NCBI RefSeq assembly: GCF_030148435.1 | Contig: NZ_JASBTN010000069.1 | Span: forward strand, 1 to 64,000 | DNA length: 64,000 nt | Source of the DNA: Aliiroseovarius sp. | Lineage (GTDB): Bacteria > Pseudomonadota > Alphaproteobacteria > Rhodobacterales > Rhodobacteraceae | Reading direction: 5' to 3' | In this document: one piece after another, positions 8,336 through 62,978 of the stretch | How the letters are laid out: each line of letters begins with the position of its first letter | Numbering within the stretch: the first letter of the stretch is position 1 | Program-made: the position numbers and the translations under genes | Notes under the pieces: model-generated | What the model was told of the DNA's origin: nothing | Database searches by the model: none | The model's input: the letters and a program-made list of their open reading frames with translations, nothing else

Positions 8336-8365
8336 CCCGCCGGCCTATCCAGCCGCAAGATACAA

Positions 8366-8400
8366 AAAACCCCGCTCGGTCGAGCGGGGTTTTCTTTTTT
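8366..8400 (+). terminator. Intrinsic terminator after trxA
   Basis: A perfect stem AAAACCCCGCTCG / CGAGCGGGGTTTT spans 8366-8393 with a 2-base loop. TTTT belongs to the stem and CTTTTTT follows. It ends the addA-trxA transcript; the stem's A-tract also allows it to work for the convergent gene at 8430. Confidence 0.92.
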
Positions 8401-8429
8401 CTGGCGCGCCTGCGCAACCAAGCCGAAGC

Positions 8430-8615
8430 TTAGTCGGCGAGGGCCACACCCAGCAGGACCAGCAGCATGAGCGGGATAACGATGCCAGCCGACGAGGAGG
8501 TGGCGGCTTCTTCGACGATGACGGTGGGTTCGACAACGGGGTCGACCAGGGCGCCGGCGTTGGCGGCAGTCGTCGCGGCGGCAACGGCCAGAGCGGCAAG
8601 GGTGATTTTTTTCAT
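8430..8615 (-). CDS. Small exported or membrane protein (61 aa), unknown function
   Basis: A short gene with a good ribosome site (GGAGA about 8 bases before the ATG at 8615). The protein begins MKKITLAALAVAAATTAANA, a clear signal peptide with an AxA cleavage site. An acidic, Val/Glu/Thr-rich linker follows, then SSSAGIVIPLMLLVLLGVALAD, one hydrophobic segment ending at the last residue. After processing it would be a roughly 40-residue peptide with a C-terminal membrane anchor. I recall similar small proteins being common in roseobacters, but no function is known to me. Its 3' end shares the terminator with trxA. Confidence 0.75.
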   Translation of the reverse strand: MKKITLAALAVAAATTAANAGALVDPVVEPTVIVEEAATSSSAGIVIPLMLLVLLGVALAD

Positions 8616-8731
8616 GTGACTTCTCCATGGGTGGAGCGCGGAACGCGCCCCGGTTTGTGATGGTAATACGGTCAGAAACCGCCAATTGTTGTGAATGGCA
8701 AGAGTGATGACGCAGTTTGCGCCCGGTGTTG

Positions 8732-32665: not shown

Positions 32666-33815
32666 TCTGGCGCTTGAGAACTGGCAAGAGGCCGGGTTCG
32701 GCCTCTACCTTCATTGGCCCTTCTGCGCGGCCAAATGCCCCTACTGCGATTTCAACAGCCATGTCAGCCGGTCGATCGATCAGGAGGCATGGCAGCGCGC
32801 CTACCTGTCCGAAATCGACCGCTACGCCGAGGCGACCCCCGGGCGCGTGCTGGACAGCATCTATTTCGGCGGCGGAACCCCGTCACTGATGGATCCAGCC
32901 TTGGTCGGTGCGATTCTGGACCGTATTTCCGACCACTGGACCCTGGGCAACAATGTCGAGATAACGCTGGAGGCCAATCCGACCTCCATCGAGGCGGCCA
33001 AATTCGCCGGATACCGCGCGGGTGGGGTAAATCGCGTTTCGGTCGGCGTGCAGGCGCTGAACGATGCCGACCTGCGCAGGCTTGGGCGGATACATTCCGT
33101 GGACGAAGCAAAACAGGCGCTGGCGCTGGCGAAATCCACCTTCGATCGCGTGAATTTCGACCTGATCTATTCGCGCCAGGATCAATCGCTGGACGACTGG
33201 CGCGCCGAACTCGACCAAGCGCTCGACATGGGCCCGGACCACCTGTCGCTCTACCAGTTGACCATCGAAGAAGGGACCGCCTTTGGCGACCGCTTTGCTG
33301 CGGGTGGTTTGCGTGGGCTTCCGGGCGATGATCTGGCGGTGGATCAGTATTTCCTGACGCAGGAGCTCTGTGAAGCCGCCGGTCTGCCCGCCTATGAGGT
33401 CTCCAATCACGCCCGGCCCGGCGAAGAAAGCCGGCACAATATGATTTATTGGCAGGCCGGCGACTGGATCGGCATTGGCCCCGGCGCCCATGGCCGCCTG
33501 ACCCTGACAGGTCGGCGCATCGGTACGGAAACGCCGCTCTCCCCGACGGAGTGGCTCAAGACCCCCGGCGAAAGCGCCCGGGAAGACATCCCATTGGACG
33601 AACAGGCCATCGAATACCTGCTCATGGGTCTGCGCCTGCGCGAGGGGATCGGTCTGGAGCGTCTGAAGTCCCGTTTCGGAATGGCTCTGGACCCACAGAA
33701 GCTCAATACCCTGCTGGAGCTGGGTCTGATCGAACTCGACGGCCCCACCCTGCGCACATCACGCGAAGGGCGGCCCGTTCTGAATGCAATCCTGCGTGAA
33801 CTGCTATCGGATTAG
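32658..33815 (+). CDS. hemW: HemW-type radical SAM protein (heme chaperone)
   Basis: About 385 residues. The radical-SAM cluster motif is HWPFCAAKCPYCDFNSHV (CxxxCxxC). GGGTPSLMDPALVGAIL and ISVG-type NRVSVGVQALNDADL follow. The family is often called coproporphyrinogen oxidase, but HemW proteins are thought to carry heme to respiratory enzymes instead of oxidising coproporphyrinogen. The GTG at 32658, inside the end of rdgB, gives the typical short N-terminus. The last 4 bases overlap parB tail-to-tail. Confidence 0.92.
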   Translation: MTDLALENWQEAGFGLYLHWPFCAAKCPYCDFNSHVSRSIDQEAWQRAYLSEIDRYAEATPGRVLDSIYFGGGTPSLMDPALVGAILDRISDHWTLGNNVEITLEANPTSIEAAKFAGYRAGGVNRVSVGVQALNDADLRRLGRIHSVDEAKQALALAKSTFDRVNFDLIYSRQDQSLDDWRAELDQALDMGPDHLSLYQLTIEEGTAFGDRFAAGGLRGLPGDDLAVDQYFLTQELCEAAGLPAYEVSNHARPGEESRHNMIYWQAGDWIGIGPGAHGRLTLTGRRIGTETPLSPTEWLKTPGESAREDIPLDEQAIEYLLMGLRLREGIGLERLKSRFGMALDPQKLNTLLELGLIELDGPTLRTSREGRPVLNAILRELLSD

Positions 33816-34693
33816 ACGCTGAGTTTTCCGCAAATATCGTCGAGCTGATCCAGATCGGCGTAACGGATTGTCACGACGCCGCTTTCCCCGCCCGGTTTGT
33901 GATCTATCGTCACCTTCATGCCCATGGCGGCGGACAGATCGCCCTCCAAGGCCCGCGTATCCGCGTCCTTTTCGGGTTTCGTGGAGGATTTGGCGCTTTT
34001 CGACGCCGGCTTCGGCCCCTTGGCCAGCCGTTCCGCATCACGCACCGACAACCCTTTGGCGGCAATCTGCTTGCCCAGCCCAATCGGATCCTCGGCCGTG
34101 ACCAGTGCGCGGGCATGCCCGGCGGTCAGCGCACCGTCGATCACCATGTCCTGCACCTCGTCCGGCAGGTTCAACAGGCGCAGCAGGTTGGCGATATGCG
34201 ACCGGCTTTTGCCCAGCGCCTCCGAAACTTTCTCCTGCGTGTGCCCGAAACGGTTCATCAGGTCGCGATAGCCCTGCGCCTCTTCAATCGCATTCAGATC
34301 GGCACGCTGGATGTTTTCGATAATCGCGACTTCCAGGGCCTCGGTGTCGTTATATTCGCGAATGATTGCAGGGACTTCGTGAAGCTGTGCCTGTTGCGCG
34401 GCGCGCCAGCGGCGCTCTCCCGCCACGATCTCGTACGTGTCGTCATCCCTTGGGTTTTTACGCAGGATCAGCGGCTGGATCACGCCCTTTTCCCGGATCG
34501 AGTTGGCCAGATCATCCAACCGTTCCTTGGTGAAATGACGCCGCGGCTGGTCCGGGTTGGGAAATATCCGCTCCACCGGCACCATCTGATCCGCCCGGCG
34601 CGGCCGATCTGGTGCCGCTTCCGGCTCCTGGCTCACATCCGCCATGAGGGCCGACAGCCCCCGCCCCAATCCGCCGCTCGGTTTCCGTGCCAT
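33812..34693 (-). CDS. parB: Chromosome-partitioning protein ParB
   Basis: A 293-residue ParB/Spo0J. The N-terminal motif GLGRGLSALMAD is where ParA contacts ParB. The CTPase/ParB-N domain has IVAGERRWRAAQQA and IIENIQRADLNAIEEAQGY, with the central helix-turn-helix GKSRSHIANLLRLLNLP. A C-terminal dimerisation domain follows an Lys/Ser-rich linker. It should bind and spread from the three parS sites at 36057, 37968 and 38006. It lies 9 bases after parA. Confidence 0.97.
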   Translation of the reverse strand: MARKPSGGLGRGLSALMADVSQEPEAAPDRPRRADQMVPVERIFPNPDQPRRHFTKERLDDLANSIREKGVIQPLILRKNPRDDDTYEIVAGERRWRAAQQAQLHEVPAIIREYNDTEALEVAIIENIQRADLNAIEEAQGYRDLMNRFGHTQEKVSEALGKSRSHIANLLRLLNLPDEVQDMVIDGALTAGHARALVTAEDPIGLGKQIAAKGLSVRDAERLAKGPKPASKSAKSSTKPEKDADTRALEGDLSAAMGMKVTIDHKPGGESGVVTIRYADLDQLDDICGKLSV

Positions 34694-34702
34694 TGCCGCC
34701 TC

Positions 34703-35494
34703 CTATCGTGCGATCAGTTCTTGAGCCAGCGCCGTATAGGCCAGCGCGCCCTTGGATGCCGGATCATAGGCCATAACCGGCAAAGCGAAAGAGGGGGCCT
34801 CGGACACCCGCACATTGCGCGGAATGACCGTGCCGAAGACCAGATCGCCCAGGTTGGCACGCGCATCCTCCTCGACCTGGCGCGACAGGTTGTTGCGCGC
34901 ATCATACATGGTCAGCACGATGCCCTCGATCCTGAGCCCCTTGTTGGCCGAGGCCCGCACCTCGCGCACCGTCAACATCAACTGGCTCAGCCCTTCCAGT
35001 GCAAAAAACTCGCTCTGCAGCGGGACCAGCACCGAATCTGCCGCCACCATCGCGTTGACCGTCAACAGGTTCAGCGACGGCGGGCAGTCAATCAGCACAT
35101 AATCGAAGCCCAGGGTTTCAATCCCCGGGTCGCGCAGCGCATCATGCAGCAGAAAACTGCGTTTTTCATTGGAAACCAGCTCAATATCGGCCGAGGACAG
35201 GTCCGTCGTCGCCGGAGTCAGATACAGCCCCTCGACCCCGGTTTTCATCACCACCTCGGCAATCGGCGCCTCGTCCACCAGCAGGTCATAGGTCGTGCGT
35301 TTGCGGTCGGCGACATCCACGCCCAGCCCGGTTGAGCAGTTGCCCTGCGGATCCAGATCTACAAGCAGAACCGCCTTGCCTTGCGAGGCAAGCGCGGCGC
35401 CCAGATTGATGGCCGTCGTGGTCTTTCCCACCCCGCCCTTCTGGTTCGTCACGGCTATGATCTTTGGTCGCTGGGGGCGAATCGGGTCAGGCAC
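34703..35494 (-). CDS. parA: Chromosome-partitioning ATPase ParA
   Basis: About 263 residues. The deviant Walker A is NQKGGVGKTTTAINLGAAL, Walker B-like is YVLIDCPPSLNLLTVNA. It uses the nucleoid as a matrix to move ParB-parS complexes. The GTG at 35494 is chosen: GGGAGA lies about 9 bases upstream and it begins the family's usual [17 protein letters not shown] longer frame to 35578 would lie inside rsmG. It overlaps rsmG by 8 bases. Confidence 0.95.
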   Translation of the reverse strand: MPDPIRPQRPKIIAVTNQKGGVGKTTTAINLGAALASQGKAVLLVDLDPQGNCSTGLGVDVADRKRTTYDLLVDEAPIAEVVMKTGVEGLYLTPATTDLSSADIELVSNEKRSFLLHDALRDPGIETLGFDYVLIDCPPSLNLLTVNAMVAADSVLVPLQSEFFALEGLSQLMLTVREVRASANKGLRIEGIVLTMYDARNNLSRQVEEDARANLGDLVFGTVIPRNVRVSEAPSFALPVMAYDPASKGALAYTALAQELIAR

Positions 35495-36110
35495 GGCGGA
35501 TGTCTCCCAGAGAAAGAATGACGGCTTCGGAACTGGTTTTGCTGGGATATGTATCCGCCCGGAAGGTCCACTTTTCAAGCGCTTCCTGCATTTCCGCCGC
35601 GTGGTTTGCTCCTTTCAGGAACAGGGCGCGGCCATTGGGTGACAGGTGTCTTTCCGCGTAGCTCAGAAGTTGGGCTAGCGGGGCCAAAGCGCGGGCAGAC
35701 AGGATATCCGCGCCCAGGGGGTCAACCTGTTCGATTCGCTTGGAAATCACGTCTGCCTTCACCCCGATCTCCCGCGCGACGGTGCGCAGGAAGGTCGCTT
35801 TGCGCAGATCGCTTTCAATGCAGGTCACGCGCAGGTCGGGGCGTTTTTCCGCCGCCAATATAGCGACAATAAGGCCGGGAAAGCCGCCGCCGGTGCCGAT
35901 ATCCACCCAGGTTCGACCTTCGGGCGCAATCTCCAGCACCTGTGCGCTGTCCAGAAAGTGCCGGGTCCAGAGCTGGCCCAGCGTGGACGGCGCCACCAGG
36001 TTGATCGCCGGATTCCATTTGGTCAGCAGCCCGGCATACCCGTCCAGCCGCGCCAATGTTTCACGTGAAACATCCACCTGGGTTAGAAAGCCCGCCCTTT
36101 CGTCGCTCAT
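35487..36110 (-). CDS. rsmG: 16S rRNA (guanine-N7)-methyltransferase RsmG
   Basis: A 207-residue methyltransferase (GidB) for the 530-loop guanine. The SAM site is [18 protein letters not shown]. An N-terminal [17 protein letters not shown] is encoded across a perfect parS palindrome. It overlaps mnmG by 4 bases and parA by 8, in the conserved mnmE-mnmG-rsmG-parA-parB order. Loss of RsmG gives low-level streptomycin resistance in other bacteria. Confidence 0.96.
36057..36072. promoter_or_regulatory. parS site 1 (inside rsmG)
   Basis: TGTTTCACGTGAAACA, a perfect 16-bp match to the bacterial parS consensus, in the rsmG codons for VSRET. It lies 1.4 kb from parB and about 5.3 kb left of the putative origin. 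Confidence 0.97.
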
Positions 36111-37999
36111 GCCTGTTTTGCCCGTTCCGCCTGACGCAGTTTCGCCAGGATCAAGGTCAGCGCCGCGGGGGTGACGCCCTCGACCCGCCCGGCCTGAGCC
36201 AGCGTGCGAGGCCGCGCGGCGGCCAATTTGGCCGACAGCTCGTTCGATAGGCCTTCCAGCCCGTGATAATCGAAATCGGACGGGATTTCATGCGCTTCGT
36301 CCCGTTGCAACGCTTCGACATCGCGCTTCTGCCGCTCGATATAATTGGCATAGAGCGCATCCTTGGCAATCTGGTCGCGAATCGGCGCCTCTATTGTCTC
36401 CAGGCCCGGCTCCAGGCCAAGAAGGTCGTCAAATGCAATGTCCGGGAAGCTCAGCAGTTCAAAACCGCTGCGCTTGGTGCCATCCTTGCGCACCTGAATA
36501 CCGGTCTTTTCGACCTCCTGCGGAGAAAAGCGGCGGGCGGTCAGCATCTCTTTCGCCTCGGCCAGTTTCTTGACCTTTTCCTCGAAGGCGGCACGGCGCG
36601 TCTCGCCAACCAGTCCGAGCTCGATCCCCATTGGTGTAAGCCGCTGGTCCGCATTATCCGCGCGCAGCGACAGCCGGAACTCGGCGCGCGAGGTGAACAT
36701 TCGATAGGGCTCTGTCACCCCGCGGGTGATCAGGTCGTCGATCATCACCCCGATATAGGAATTCGAGCGCGAGAAGATCACAGGGCCCTGCCCCTTGATC
36801 TTGAGGGACGCATTCAGACCGGCCACAAGACCTTGTGCTGCGGCCTCTTCGTACCCGGTGGTGCCGTTGATCTGCCCGGCCAGGAATAAGCCGGGCACGT
36901 CACGCAGTTCCAGCGTTTCGGTCAGTGCGCGCGGGTCAACGTAGTCATATTCGATCGCATAGCCAGGCTGGAGGATCTTCGCATTCTCCAACCCGAAGAT
37001 CGAGCGAACGTAATCTTCCTGCACTTCGACGGGCAGAGATGTGCTGATTCCGTTCGGATAGACGGTATCGTCGTCCAACCCTTCGGGCTCCAGAAATACC
37101 TGGTGGCTTTCCTTGTCGGCAAAGCGCACGATCTTGTCCTCGATCGACGGGCAGTAGCGCGGCCCGACCCCGTCGATATGCCCGCCATACATGGCGCTGC
37201 GGTCGAGGTTCTGCCGAATGATCTCATGCGTACGGGCATTCGTATGGGTGATTCCGCAGGCAACCTGCCGCGCAAACGGCTTGTCATGCAGGAACGAGAA
37301 CATCTCGGGCGCCTTATCGCCCGGCTGGCTATCCAGCGCCTCCCAATTGATGGTTTTCCCATCCAGACGCGGTGGCGTCCCGGTTTTCAACCGGGCCAGA
37401 GGCAGACCGAAGCCATCGATACGCTCGGCCAGCCGGATCGAGGGCCGGTCTCCCATCCGCCCACCATCCGTGCGCACATCACCGATGTGGATGACCCCGC
37501 GCAGAAAGGTGCCGGTGGTCAGGATCACCGCGCCTGCACGAATCTCGGAGCCATCCGCCAGAACCACGCCGGTCACGGTATTGCCCTGCATGATCATGTC
37601 CGTGACCTCGCCTTCGATCACCTGAAGGTTCGGCTGGGCGCGAATCTCCGCTTGCATTTCCGTGCGATATATCTTGCGATCAGATTGCGCGCGGGGGCCT
37701 TGTACCGCGGGGCCCTTGCGACGATTGAGCAGGCGAAACTGGATGCCTGCCTTGTCCGCAACACGGCCCATGACGCCGTCCAGCGCATCCACCTCGCGCA
37801 CCAGGTGGCCCTTGCCGAGACCGCCGATCGCGGGGTTGCAGGACATCACGCCGATCCCGTCGATCCGAAGCGTGATCAGCGCGGTGCGCACACCCATGCG
37901 TGCAGAAGCATGGGCGGCATCGGCACCCGCGTGCCCGCCCCCGACAACGATCACATCGAAATCAGACTGTTTCACGTGAAACACTCCTTGTTGGCTCAT
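36107..37999 (-). CDS. mnmG: tRNA uridine-5-carboxymethylaminomethyl modification enzyme MnmG
   Basis: A 630-residue FAD protein (GidA). The FAD fold is [40 protein letters not shown] and [11 protein letters not shown] are family signatures. With MnmE it modifies wobble U34 of tRNAs. The start is ambiguous. ATG at 37999 has AGGA touching it, a GTG at 37984 gives the common FHVKQ N-terminus, and a GTG at 37975 has AAGGAG at good spacing. parS site 2 lies in this N-terminal coding stretch. Confidence 0.95.
37968..37983. promoter_or_regulatory. parS site 2 (5' end of mnmG)
   Basis: TGTTTCACGTGAAACA, a perfect 16-bp match, encoding the FHVKQ residues of MnmG. It is 38 bp from site 3, centre to centre. 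Confidence 0.97.
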
Positions 38000-38005
38000 T
38001 CCTGA

Positions 38006-38021
38006 TGTTTCACGTGAAACA
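38006..38021. promoter_or_regulatory. parS site 3 (mnmG-mnmE gap)
   Basis: TGTTTCACGTGAAACA, a perfect match. The palindrome extends to 20 bp (GATGTTTCACGTGAAACATC, 38004-38023), filling most of the 36-base gap between mnmG and mnmE. Confidence 0.97.
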
Positions 38022-39343: not shown

Positions 39344-40615
<1,272 letters not shown>

Positions 40616-40696
40616 GAAATACTCCACGCGCTGTTCAGCGCGGTCTTGTGTTCTGTTCCGGGAAACAGCGTACGGCCGGACGGCCTGCTTGACGGC

Positions 40697-40725
40697 TATC
40701 TAAGCAGATGGCCCGCGTGAGTCAA
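40697..40725 (-). promoter_or_regulatory. Candidate promoter for rho
   Basis: On the minus strand TTGACT (40725-40720) and TAGATA (40702-40697) are separated by 17 bases. The leader would be about 75 bases, containing a GGCCG-GA-CGGCC hairpin near 40672-40684 that could take part in rho autoregulation. The -10 match is only partial. Confidence 0.45.
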
Positions 40726-40757
40726 CGCATGTGGCACCAGAGGCCACACAGGGCGCG

Positions 40758-41207
40758 TCAGAACTTGTAGATCACCGAAAAGACGATCACCAGCATCAAC
40801 AGCGTCGGAACCTCGTTCATCACGCGGTAACGGCGTCCTGTGAGCGTGTTGGTGCCCGCAACGAACTCCTTGCGCCGTGCCGCAAGCCACATGTGAAACC
40901 AGGTCATGGCGATCACGCTCAACCCCTTGGTCCAGGGCCAGACCATGTCCCAGCCGACAATGCCCGGTGTCAGAACAAGGACGAGACCGAAAATCCAGGT
41001 CGAGATCATCGCAGGGTTCATGATCGCCTTCAGCAGCCGCCGTTCCATGGTCTGGAACAACGTGTCGGTCTCATTGCCCGTTCCCACAACTTCGACGTGG
41101 TAGACGAACAGGCGCGGCAGGTAGAACAGGCCGGCCATCCAGGCGATCACACTGACGATATGCATCGCTTTCGCGAAATTGTAGAACGTGATCAGGACGT
41201 CTTGCAT
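40758..41207 (-). CDS. hemJ: Protoporphyrinogen IX oxidase HemJ
   Basis: A 149-residue membrane protein with four hydrophobic segments. It starts DVLITFYNFAKAMHIVSVIAWMAGLFYLPRLFVYH; the conserved His is residue 16, and a conserved Lys lies in PWTKGLSVIAMTW. HemJ is the oxygen-independent-type protoporphyrinogen oxidase used by most alphaproteobacteria that lack HemG/HemY. It reads away from the origin, with its promoter presumably in the A/T-rich tract at 41258-41294. Confidence 0.93.
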   Translation of the reverse strand: MQDVLITFYNFAKAMHIVSVIAWMAGLFYLPRLFVYHVEVVGTGNETDTLFQTMERRLLKAIMNPAMISTWIFGLVLVLTPGIVGWDMVWPWTKGLSVIAMTWFHMWLAARRKEFVAGTNTLTGRRYRVMNEVPTLLMLVIVFSVIYKF

Positions 41208-41618
41208 GTTCTCAGCCTTTGCTCGGGGTGTTCTGGGCGAACCCTCTCGGACCTTCCATATAAAATAAAAGAAAGAAAGAAAAAGATGATGATTTGGATA
41301 GGGCCTGTGGACAACGGGGATTATTGATTTGTCCCCAGTGTTCTCCGGGGTGGTCTTGCGCTGTGGATTTCTGCGGGGAAAAGGGCAGCTTCGGTGTCAT
41401 TTCAAGGCTTTAAAGATGTTAAACTTCGGGGATAACCGCCGGGGCAAATGTTAAACAACCCGGTTTTCCCGCGTTGCAAAGTTTAAACCTTCCACGGTGG
41501 ATCGACCCGGGAATTTGCGTTAGGGACTCGGGGAGATATTCACAGGCTCGGCGGGGGGTACGATTTGCCCACCAACAGGCCCCCGGAACAAACCGCAAAT
41601 ATCCACAGGGTTGTGAAC
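41208..41618. other. oriC: Putative chromosomal replication origin (oriC)
   Basis: A 411-bp gap with no gene, between leftward hemJ and rightward maf. It holds an A/T-rich purine tract at 41258-41294 (candidate unwinding element) and DnaA-box-like 9-mers. The closest match TTATCCACA with one change: 41306-41314 (minus strand) and 41599-41607. Two-change matches are at 41329, 41362, 41427 and 41536. Three GTTAAAC/GTTTAAAC motifs lie at 41418, 41450 and 41481. Gene polarity diverges here, parABS is nearby, and from memory alphaproteobacterial origins lie near maf-aroE-coaE-dnaQ. No replication data are available. Confidence 0.75.
41418..41488. repeat. Three evenly spaced GTTAAAC/GTTTAAAC motifs in the origin gap
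   Basis: GTTAAAC at 41418-41424, GTTAAAC at 41450-41456 and the palindrome GTTTAAAC at 41481-41488. Spacings are 32 and 31 bp, about three helical turns. The first is part of TTAA-N5-TTAA (41410-41422), near but not equal to a CtrA box. Confidence 0.6.
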
Positions 41619-42218
41619 ATGGCGCAACAGATCATCCTGGCCTCCGCTTCGGAAATCCGCGCGCAGTTGCTCAAGAATGCCGGGATCGCGGTCGAGGTCA
41701 AGCCCGCCCGGGTGGATGAAGAGATGATCCGAAGGGCGCTGGAGGCGGACGGCGCCGGACCGCGCGATGTGGCGGATGCGCTGGCCGAGGCCAAGGCGTT
41801 GAAAATAAGTCGAAAAACTCCTGTTTCTCTGGTTCTGGGATGCGATCAGGTGGCCGACGTCGACCGTGACATCCTGTCCAAGCCTGAGAGCCCGGAGGAG
41901 GCGATTGCGCAGCTGACCCGCCTGTCCGGCCAGACCCACCGGCTGCTGTCGGCGGCGGTGATCTGCCACGACGGCAAGCCGATCTGGCGTCACGTAGGCA
42001 CCGTGCGCCTGACCATGCGGGAGTTGTCCCCCGGCTATGTCACCGACTATGTTCATCGCAACTGGGACAGTATCCGCTGGGCGGTCGGCGCCTACAAGCT
42101 CGAGGAAGAAGGCATTCGCCTTTTCTCGCGCATAGACGGCGATTACTTCAACGTTCTGGGCCTGCCCCTGATGGAGATCATCTCCTATCTGATTACGCGT
42201 AAGGACTTGAAAATATGA
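41619..42218 (+). CDS. maf: Maf-like nucleoside triphosphate pyrophosphatase
   Basis: A 199-residue Maf/HAM1-fold protein. It begins AQQIILASASEIRAQLLKNA and has LGCDQVADVDRDILSKP. Maf proteins hydrolyse non-canonical or canonical dNTPs/UTP and affect septation when overproduced. The ATG at 41619 follows CAGGG at 41606-41610, which directly abuts and overlaps the last DnaA-box-like 9-mer. An in-frame GTG at 41613 is possible. It is first in the maf-aroE-coaE-dnaQ operon. Confidence 0.92.
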   Translation: MAQQIILASASEIRAQLLKNAGIAVEVKPARVDEEMIRRALEADGAGPRDVADALAEAKALKISRKTPVSLVLGCDQVADVDRDILSKPESPEEAIAQLTRLSGQTHRLLSAAVICHDGKPIWRHVGTVRLTMRELSPGYVTDYVHRNWDSIRWAVGAYKLEEEGIRLFSRIDGDYFNVLGLPLMEIISYLITRKDLKI

Positions 42219-43054
42219 GTGAAAAGCGCATCCCTCTGGCTGGTGTCATTGGCGATCCCGTGGAACATTCCCTGTCGCCGCGCCTGCATGGGCATTGGTT
42301 GAAGACCATGGATTTGCCGGGCCACTACATCCCGCTGCGCGTGGCGCCGGAGGATTTGGAGGACGTCATTCGCACCATGCCCAGGATGGGCTTTGCCGGC
42401 TGCAACGTGACGATCCCGCACAAGGAAGCAGTGCTGAAACTCGCCGATGTCGTGACCGACCGCGCGGCGCTGATAGGGGCTGCCAACACCTTGATTTTCC
42501 TCAATGATGGCAAGATTCTCGCCGACAACACCGACGGGTATGGTTTCATCCAGAACCTGCGCCAGGGGGCGCCGGGCTGGAACCCCAAGGCGGGCCATGC
42601 GGTGGTTTTCGGCGCTGGCGGTGCGTCGCGCGCGATCCTTGCCTCGCTGATCGAAGTCGGGGTCGAGGAGATCCGCCTCACCAACCGTACCCGCGCCCGC
42701 GCCGATGAGCTGCGCCATGAATTCGGGACCAAGATCACCGTGTTCGATTGGGTGCAGGCCGCCAATCTGGTTGATGGTGCGGCGACGGTGATCAACACGA
42801 CCTCTCTGGGCATGACCGGCGGCAAGGAGTTTCGCGTGCCGCTGGATGGGTTGACGCCCGGCGCCGTGGTGACTGACATTGTCTATACCCCTCTGATTAC
42901 ACCGCTTTTACAAAAGGCGGCCGAAGCCGGCTGCGTTACTGTTGATGGTCTGGGCATGCTGCTGCATCAGGCGGTGCCCGGCTTTGAACGCTGGTTCGGC
43001 ACGCGGCCCGAGGTGACGGATGACCTCAGAAAAGCGGTGTTGGGCGATGGCTGA
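42215..43054 (+). CDS. aroE: Shikimate dehydrogenase
   Basis: A 279-residue NADP enzyme of the aromatic pathway. Substrate-binding motif GVIGDPVEHSLSPRLHGHWL, catalytic Lys in GCNVTIPHKEAVLKLAD, nucleotide fold VVFGAGGASRAILASL. It starts in an ATGA overlap with maf and overlaps coaE by 8 bases. Confidence 0.96.
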   Translation: MSEKRIPLAGVIGDPVEHSLSPRLHGHWLKTMDLPGHYIPLRVAPEDLEDVIRTMPRMGFAGCNVTIPHKEAVLKLADVVTDRAALIGAANTLIFLNDGKILADNTDGYGFIQNLRQGAPGWNPKAGHAVVFGAGGASRAILASLIEVGVEEIRLTNRTRARADELRHEFGTKITVFDWVQAANLVDGAATVINTTSLGMTGGKEFRVPLDGLTPGAVVTDIVYTPLITPLLQKAAEAGCVTVDGLGMLLHQAVPGFERWFGTRPEVTDDLRKAVLGDG

Positions 43055-43646
43055 TCCCTATCTCATTGGTCTCACCGGTTCGATCGGCATGGGCAAATCC
43101 ACCACCGCGGCGATGTTTGCCGAGGCGGGCATTCCCACCTGGGATGCGGATGCCGCCGTGCATCGGATCTATGCCCCCGGCGGCGCGGCGGTTGAGCCGA
43201 TCCGGGCAATTTGCCCGGAAGCGATCGTGGATGGCGGCGTGGATCGAGACCGGTTGAAAGACTGGATGATGCGCGATGCTACCGCCTTGAAACAAATGGA
43301 AAAGGTCGTACATCCCCTGGTCGCTGAAGACCGCGCGAAGTTTTTGAAAACCACCGACAGCCCCATCGTTTTGCTTGATATGCCTCTCTTGTTCGAGATC
43401 GGCGCAGCAGATCAGGTCGACCTGGTCGTCGTCGTCTCGGCCCCGCCGGAGCTGCAACGCGAACGCGTGCTGGCCCGTGGCACGATGAGCGAGGAACAGT
43501 TCACGGCAATCCTGGAAAAACAGATGCCCGACGCGGTCAAACGCGCCAATGCGGATGTGATCGTCCCGACCGAGACCCTTGACGGCGCGCGCAACGCGGT
43601 GGCCGAGGTGATCGCCCATGTGAAGGAGACCCTCGCCAATGCGTGA
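43047..43646 (+). CDS. coaE: Dephospho-CoA kinase
   Basis: A 199-residue kinase for the last step of CoA synthesis. The P-loop is YLIGLTGSIGMGKSTTAAMF; IVLLDMPLLFEIGAADQVD is a family signature. The ATG at 43047 overlaps aroE; a longer frame from 43020 lies within aroE. Its 3' end overlaps dnaQ by 8 bases. Confidence 0.96.
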   Translation: MADPYLIGLTGSIGMGKSTTAAMFAEAGIPTWDADAAVHRIYAPGGAAVEPIRAICPEAIVDGGVDRDRLKDWMMRDATALKQMEKVVHPLVAEDRAKFLKTTDSPIVLLDMPLLFEIGAADQVDLVVVVSAPPELQRERVLARGTMSEEQFTAILEKQMPDAVKRANADVIVPTETLDGARNAVAEVIAHVKETLANA

Positions 43647-44367
43647 GATCGTGATGGATACGGAAACCACCGGTTTCGACCCGTTCACCGGCGACCGCAT
43701 TGTCGAGATCGGCGGGATCGAGCTGATCAACCACATGCCGACCGGTCGGACCTATCACCAGTATATCAATCCCGAACGCTCGATGCCCGAGGGCGCTTTC
43801 AAGGTGCATGGAATCGGGCCCGACATCCTGGAACCTCCGCAGCCGGTCGAACCCGGCGCCGTGACCCTGCGTGACAAGCCGCTCTTCGCCCAGGTCGGCA
43901 AGGATTTCCATGACTTTGTCGGAGACGCGAGGTTGGTGATCCACAACGCGCCCTTCGACATGAAATTCCTGAACTGGGAATGGAAACGCATGGGCCTGCC
44001 GGAACTGCCCATGTCCCAGGCGCTGGATACGCTGGAAATGGCGCGCGCCAAGTTCCCCGGGGCGCAGAACACGCTGGACGGGCTCTGCCGCCGGTACGGG
44101 ATCGACAACGCGAACCGAACCCTGCACGGCGCGCTTCTGGACTCGGAAATCCTGGCGGAAGTCTATCTGGAAATGATCGGTGGACGTCAGCCCGGGCTGG
44201 TGCTGAACGTCATGTCCGGCGTAGGTGGGGGCGCGGCCGGGGAAGATTGGCGCGCGCGCCCACGACCCGAGGCATTGCCGTCGCGGATTACAGACGAAGA
44301 AGCCGCCGCCCATGCCGAATTCGTTGACGGCTTGGGCGACGGCGCGATTTGGAAAAAATTCAGCTAG
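43639..44367 (+). CDS. dnaQ: DNA polymerase III epsilon subunit (proofreading exonuclease)
   Basis: A 242-residue DEDDh exonuclease. ExoI motif is REIVMDTETTGFDPFTGDRI, ExoII is LVIHNAPFDMKFLNWEW and ExoIII is NRTLHGALLDSEILAEVYL, with the His and Asp of the active site. A C-terminal extension ending WKKFS should include the polymerase-binding segment. It is last in the operon from maf, converging on secB with only 9 bases between stops. Confidence 0.96.
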   Translation: MREIVMDTETTGFDPFTGDRIVEIGGIELINHMPTGRTYHQYINPERSMPEGAFKVHGIGPDILEPPQPVEPGAVTLRDKPLFAQVGKDFHDFVGDARLVIHNAPFDMKFLNWEWKRMGLPELPMSQALDTLEMARAKFPGAQNTLDGLCRRYGIDNANRTLHGALLDSEILAEVYLEMIGGRQPGLVLNVMSGVGGGAAGEDWRARPRPEALPSRITDEEAAAHAEFVDGLGDGAIWKKFS

Positions 44368-62316: not shown

Positions 62317-62339
62317 CCCCAGGCCTCGGAGCAAGCGCC

Positions 62340-62978
62340 ATGACGCGCGGGGGTCAGAAATCGCGAGCGGACGAGCCCGAACGGCGCTGCATCGCGACCG
62401 GAGAGACTCAGCCGCGCGCTGGGCTGATCCGCTTCGTGGTCGGGCCCGACGATCAGGTGGTGCCTGACCTGTTGGGCAAGCTGCCGGGCCGCGGCATCTG
62501 GGTCTCGGCCGACCGCAAGGCGCTTGAGAAAGCCGTGGCGAAAGGTCTGTTTTCGCGCGGAGCAAAGCGTAAGGTCTCGGTCCCTGAGGGGCTGGTCGAG
62601 GACCTGGAAAAGGCGCTGGCGGATCGGGTGGTGCACCTGGTCAGTCTGGCGCGAAAGGCCGGCCAGGCTGTGGCCGGCTATGAGAAAGTGAAAGACTGGC
62701 TGATGAAGGATCAGGCGAAAGTGCTGATCCAGGCCAGCGATGGTTCGGAGCGCGGGAAATCCAAGCTCCGCCCCCCCCCGGGACGGGACTGTTTCATTGG
62801 CGTTTTGACCGCGAATGAATTGGGTTTGGCTTTCGGGCGGGAAAATGTGATACATGGCGCGCTCGCCGCTGGCGGTTTGACCTCTCGTGTAGTAGAGGAA
62901 GCCGCAAAGCTGCGAGGCTTGCGCGCGCAAGAGGATGTCGGCGCAAATCGGCGCCGGAAAGGTACGAAGACCAGATGA
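62340..62978 (+). CDS. YlxR/L7Ae-like RNA-binding protein
   Basis: A 212-residue fusion of two RNA-binding units. The N-terminal YlxR (DUF448) domain has ERRCIATGETQPRAGLIRFV and GKLPGRGIWVSADRKALEKA. The C-terminal L7Ae-like domain has LVSLARKAGQAVAGYEKVKD and GVLTANELGLAFGRENVIHG. Alphaproteobacteria commonly place it between nusA and infB. It overlaps infB by 4 bases (ATGA). Confidence 0.93.
   Translation: MTRGGQKSRADEPERRCIATGETQPRAGLIRFVVGPDDQVVPDLLGKLPGRGIWVSADRKALEKAVAKGLFSRGAKRKVSVPEGLVEDLEKALADRVVHLVSLARKAGQAVAGYEKVKDWLMKDQAKVLIQASDGSERGKSKLRPPPGRDCFIGVLTANELGLAFGRENVIHGALAAGGLTSRVVEEAAKLRGLRAQEDVGANRRRKGTKTR

Follow-up and report, generated by a model that had tools for sequence, protein, structure and literature searches.

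The window, that is, the whole stretch of 64,000 nucleotides analysed here, belongs to a draft genome of 89 contigs and is by its HemJ nearest to Aliiroseovarius (77-84% identity). At its centre of interest lie the 411 bp between hemJ and maf (41208-41618), with exact edges at the hemJ start (41207, minus strand) and the maf ATG (41619, plus strand). The surrounding genes form an alphaproteobacterial origin gene cluster, with parB-parA-rsmG-mnmG-mnmE-rho on one side and maf-aroE-coaE-dnaQ on the other (Table 1). As an earlier note on this DNA had stated, gene polarity diverges on both sides of the gap, the block from parB to hemJ being encoded on the minus strand and the block from maf to dnaQ on the plus strand. 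The same note had called the gap the only gene-free stretch of more than 300 bp, which is about right: the gap itself is gene-free, but open reading frame (ORF) tiling leaves two more stretches of 394-396 bp. One of them (62317-62710) is mostly taken up by a long ORF that starts at 62340, and the other (8336-8731) probably holds a small secreted-protein ORF.

Table 1. Features of the hemJ-maf gap and its surroundings (positions in the window; changes are counted relative to TTATCCACA).
Feature	Position	Strand	Remark
parB (33812-34693) and parA (34703-35512), origin segregation genes	33812..35512	-	NCBIfam ParB/RepB/Spo0J above cut-off; ParA-type matches
parS, perfect TGTTTCACGTGAAACA	36057..36072
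parS, perfect	37968..37983
parS, perfect	38006..38021
Left flank: rho (39344-40627) and hemJ (40758-41207)	39344..41207	-
Putative oriC, gene-free	41208..41618		between divergent hemJ and maf
Putative DNA unwinding element, A/T-rich, plus strand purine-rich	41251..41300		lowest stability of any 50 bp in the 64-kb window by nearest-neighbour energies
Seven DnaA-trio-like triplets (3'-5': TAG TAG TAG AAA AAG AAA GAA)	41273..41293	+	12 bp from the box at 41306
Weak DnaA box CTATCCAAA	41293..41301	-	2 changes
Proximal DnaA box TTGTCCACA, likely unwinding platform	41306..41314	-	1 change
Weak DnaA box TTGTCCCCA	41329..41337	+	2 changes
Weak DnaA box AAATCCACA	41362..41370	-	2 changes
Weak DnaA box TTATCCCCG	41427..41435	-	2 changes; aligned with GGGGATAA, a block conserved in the nearest relatives
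Weak DnaA box ATATTCACA	41536..41544	+	2 changes
Distal DnaA box ATATCCACA	41599..41607	+	1 change; starts 20 bp before maf
Right flank: maf, aroE, coaE, dnaQ-type exonuclease	41619..44367	+

Seven 9-mers in the gap differ from the DnaA box TTATCCACA by at most two changes and two of these by a single change, while a perfect TTATCCACA was not found between hemJ and maf. The earlier count of six boxes was hence one short, whereas the two one-change boxes it had listed were recovered. Dinucleotide shuffles of the gap (n = 2000) contain a mean of 1.06 boxes at up to two changes, and none of the 2000 reaches seven; for boxes with at most one change the shuffle mean is 0.07 (P = 0.002). Moreover, at up to two changes no 411-bp stretch of the window holds more than seven boxes, and the best 411-bp stretch in 315 kb sampled elsewhere in the genome has five. 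The cluster is without equal in the approximately 380 kb of this genome that were examined.

The A/T-rich purine tract noted earlier (41258-41294) is real and falls within the least stable 50 bp of the window. A similar placement is seen in relatives, where the least stable 50 bp starts within the first 90 bp of the gap in 42 of 79 gaps and GATGATG occurs within the first 110 bp in 52 of 79. DnaA trios are located on the strand complementary to TTATCCACA and are read away from the box, as in E. coli R1 and its unwinding element. The rules for a basal unwinding system (BUS) comprise a DnaA box with at most two changes, a spacer of 0-16 bp and at least three NAN triplets (PMC8287927). The gap resembles BUS in having a DnaA box, a 12-bp spacer (10-13 bp is usual) and seven NAN triplets, but the triplets are TAG, AAA, AAG and GAA (3'-5') where the BUS consensus is GAT. 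The rules are satisfied by 62 of 79 gaps on the triplet-bearing strand versus 20 of 79 on the other strand, and A-rich tracts pass them easily. Against composition shuffles the triplet run reaches P = 0.033, which is weak alone. Because composition by itself yields such a run in 3% of shuffles, the NAN triplets at 41273-41293 are only suggestive of DnaA trios.

Among 80 named loci of relatives, 78 have both hemJ and maf, and in all 78 the two genes are divergent and separated by a gap of 347-451 bp. The gaps contain on average 3.1 boxes with at most one change compared with 0.056 per 411 bp of flank, an approximately 56-fold excess. Unbiased counts of 7- to 9-mers over the gaps likewise place DnaA-box words at the top, followed by AAGAAAAG and the GATGATG words of the tract. 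In 59 of 79 gaps (0.8 expected) an inverted box with at most one change occurs at a distance of 45-135 bp from hemJ, and 20 of 79 lack one at this threshold. A forward box with at most one change is found no more than 45 bp away from maf in 53 of the 79 gaps (0.35 expected). Most relatives share a layout in which an inverted box stands near the hemJ side and a forward box some 20 bp ahead of maf. In an alignment of the window with its 18 nearest relatives, the conserved short blocks are the purine tract with GATGATG, GGCCTGTGGATAATGGGGATTA, GGGGATAA and ACAGTGGA, and a further conserved block, GAACAAAC..TTTTCCACAGGGTTAT, precedes maf. In five family genomes with no clear HemJ match, the gap sits between rho and maf; some genomes lacking hemJ have few boxes.

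GC skew also changes at this position. The cumulative G-C minimum of the 76.7-kb contig (76,703 bp) that carries the window lies at 41,093, 115 bp from the gap, and permutation of 1-kb blocks places the contig minimum at the gap in 0.04% of trials. In a 2-kb profile the sign turns from negative to positive at 40-41 kb. Fourfold sites averaged over both gene strands give -0.12 on the left and -0.02, roughly zero, on the right. The skew switch is real, but its right arm is weak once gene strand and codon position are corrected for. G003, a relative assembled as a single contig, has its minimum across the sampled chromosome next to the gap, 1.6 kb from the hemJ start at base resolution, and its dnaA is about 82 kb away. 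G035 has a local cumulative minimum 42 bp (0.04 kb) from the hemJ start, and G013 has its minimum about 18 kb from the gap and a near-equal value at the gap itself. The earlier note had expected the skew to reverse at the gap and not elsewhere, such as near dnaA; this agrees with the minimum found on the contig and with those of the three relatives, in which dnaA is about 80-215 kb off and outside the skew minimum. A fourth relative, G034, was discarded as skew evidence, its skew being scrambled and its chromosome too rearranged to inform. The reported proximity of parABS was borne out as well: beside parB and parA there are three perfect parS sites, 3-5 kb left of the gap, where 0.14 matches are expected. 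Closeness of parAB to the origin has been noted for alphaproteobacterial orders (PMC8116508).

The setting can be compared with known origins. The region in the outgroups G045 and G048 is arranged as rho, hemJ, hemE, gap, ppsR, maf, aroE, coaE, dnaQ, in line with the earlier statement that maf-aroE-coaE-dnaQ stands beside the origin in other alphaproteobacteria. The Caulobacter and Rickettsia origins lie in this same interval, between hemE and COG1806 (PMC1914354). With the Caulobacter crescentus Cori and the Rickettsia origin (hemE-ppsR[COG1806]), the gap shares rho and hemJ on one side, maf-aroE-coaE-dnaQ on the other, the size (383-404 bp; PMC1914354), the DnaA boxes and an A/T-rich part. 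A Caulobacter-type Cori is bounded by hemE and ppsR, and this gap is not: hemE is on another contig here (C80:134396-135406) and distant from the gap in G003, G013 and G035, and ppsR (PF03618) was not found in any of the four family genomes searched, namely this one and the same three relatives. A further difference from the Caulobacter Cori is the absence of a TTAA-N7-TTAA CtrA site from the gap; such a site is present in 3 of 79 gaps. The gap is thus retained with differing neighbours, hemE and ppsR or rho, suggesting that it follows the position of the origin and not one flanking gene.

Within the family, oriCs of 101 Rhodobacteraceae chromosomes were predicted earlier with Ori-Finder (PMC6699656). 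That set shares with the present case the family and the criteria (skew minimum, DnaA boxes and closeness to parAB) and differs in that the genome studied here is a draft and that hemJ and maf are unnamed in the main text of PMC6699656. Since Rhodobacteraceae origins have been predicted before by the same criteria, the finding represents a known kind of origin. The 411-bp gap is very probably the replication start of the chromosome, a predicted origin of an ordinary kind, and the earlier proposal of a likely chromosomal origin is supported as a strong prediction by the box cluster, the unstable tract, the skew and the conservation in 78 relatives.

The explanation that fits best, and of which we are highly confident, is that 41208-41618 is a DnaA-dependent chromosomal oriC with presumed leftward melting from the proximal box at 41306-41314 into 41251-41300. 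From the computed position, skew switch, box cluster, unstable tract, conserved layout and parS sites, we infer DnaA binding, the melting site, helicase loading and segregation as follows. ATP-DnaA would occupy the two stronger and five weak boxes and nucleate on the inverted proximal box. A DnaA filament might then grow leftwards across the 12-bp spacer into the A/T-rich segment and capture the plus strand of the tract at the trio-like triplets. The duplex would open in this segment and two DnaB helicases could be loaded, leading to bidirectional replication, after which ParB on the parS sites to the left may help to separate the copied origins.

Divergent hemJ and maf need promoters within the gap, and the region might accordingly be a mere shared promoter region whose DnaA boxes serve transcription control. 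We consider this very unlikely, as a gap of about 400 bp is retained family-wide, also where rho replaces hemJ, the skew switches at the gap in four genomes and boxes are 10 to 56 times as dense as in the flanks. The origin might instead be near dnaA or elsewhere and the gap a DnaA-titration site like datA. In many bacteria oriC is found beside dnaA, and here dnaA is on another contig. Against such a titration site, dnaA in this genome has no box cluster around it (at most two boxes), G003, G035 and G013 have their skew minimum at or close to hemJ-maf instead of at dnaA, and the parS sites adjoin the gap, which makes it a highly improbable alternative.

Long conserved non-coding stretches sometimes encode a small RNA or an overlooked small gene. 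For this gap the idea is scarcely credible: Rfam gives no match in it, the one weak match being inside maf, and among the nearest relatives only short DnaA-box-like blocks and the A/T tract are conserved. With the preferred reading as a DnaA-dependent oriC, a draft genome gains a predicted origin annotated at base level, and 79 genomes show a conserved architecture that is testable in cultured Rhodobacteraceae (such as Dinoroseobacter, Rhodobacter and Aliiroseovarius). Origins of this type serve as anchor points for replichore analyses and for estimating growth rates from read depth.

Mild novelty is confined to two points, the lack of CtrA sites and the loss of the neighbouring genes. Tentatively, and with somewhat less than even confidence, the Rhodobacteraceae origin might be regarded as re-bounded, having lost its ancestral hemE-ppsR neighbours and kept maf and parABS. 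With Caulobacter-type CtrA sites missing, the DnaA box layout and the one-sided trio-like tract might set initiation without CtrA at the origin. In evolutionary terms, the loss of hemE, ppsR and the CtrA sites around the origin is of modest weight and bears on how replication control may differ from that of Caulobacter.

Other motifs were scored in the same gaps. GTTAAC does not occur in the gap, and IHF-like sites are absent from it and present in 10 of 79 gaps. TTAAAC-like repeats of this gap were rejected as a second motif, TTAAC/GTTAA being unenriched over 79 gaps (0.44 versus 0.72 expected). GANTC is far below expectation between 39100 and 43900 (6 found versus about 25 expected), a scarcity around the origin that might be expected in a CcrM-methylating alphaproteobacterium. 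The weak Rfam match inside maf (SECIS_2, 41922-41974) is far below the gathering score and probably due to chance.

When the genome was scanned for perfect TTATCCACA, an inverted pair turned up on another contig (C55:157700-157725), where the 26-bp palindrome TGTGGATAAGTTTCAACTTATCCACA consists of two perfect inverted DnaA boxes. Some 130 bp separate it from a downstream luxR-type gene, which is followed by luxI, and a perfect inverted box pair like it occurs in one further genome among 101 searched. The palindrome may be a lux-box-type site, or it may link DnaA and quorum sensing.
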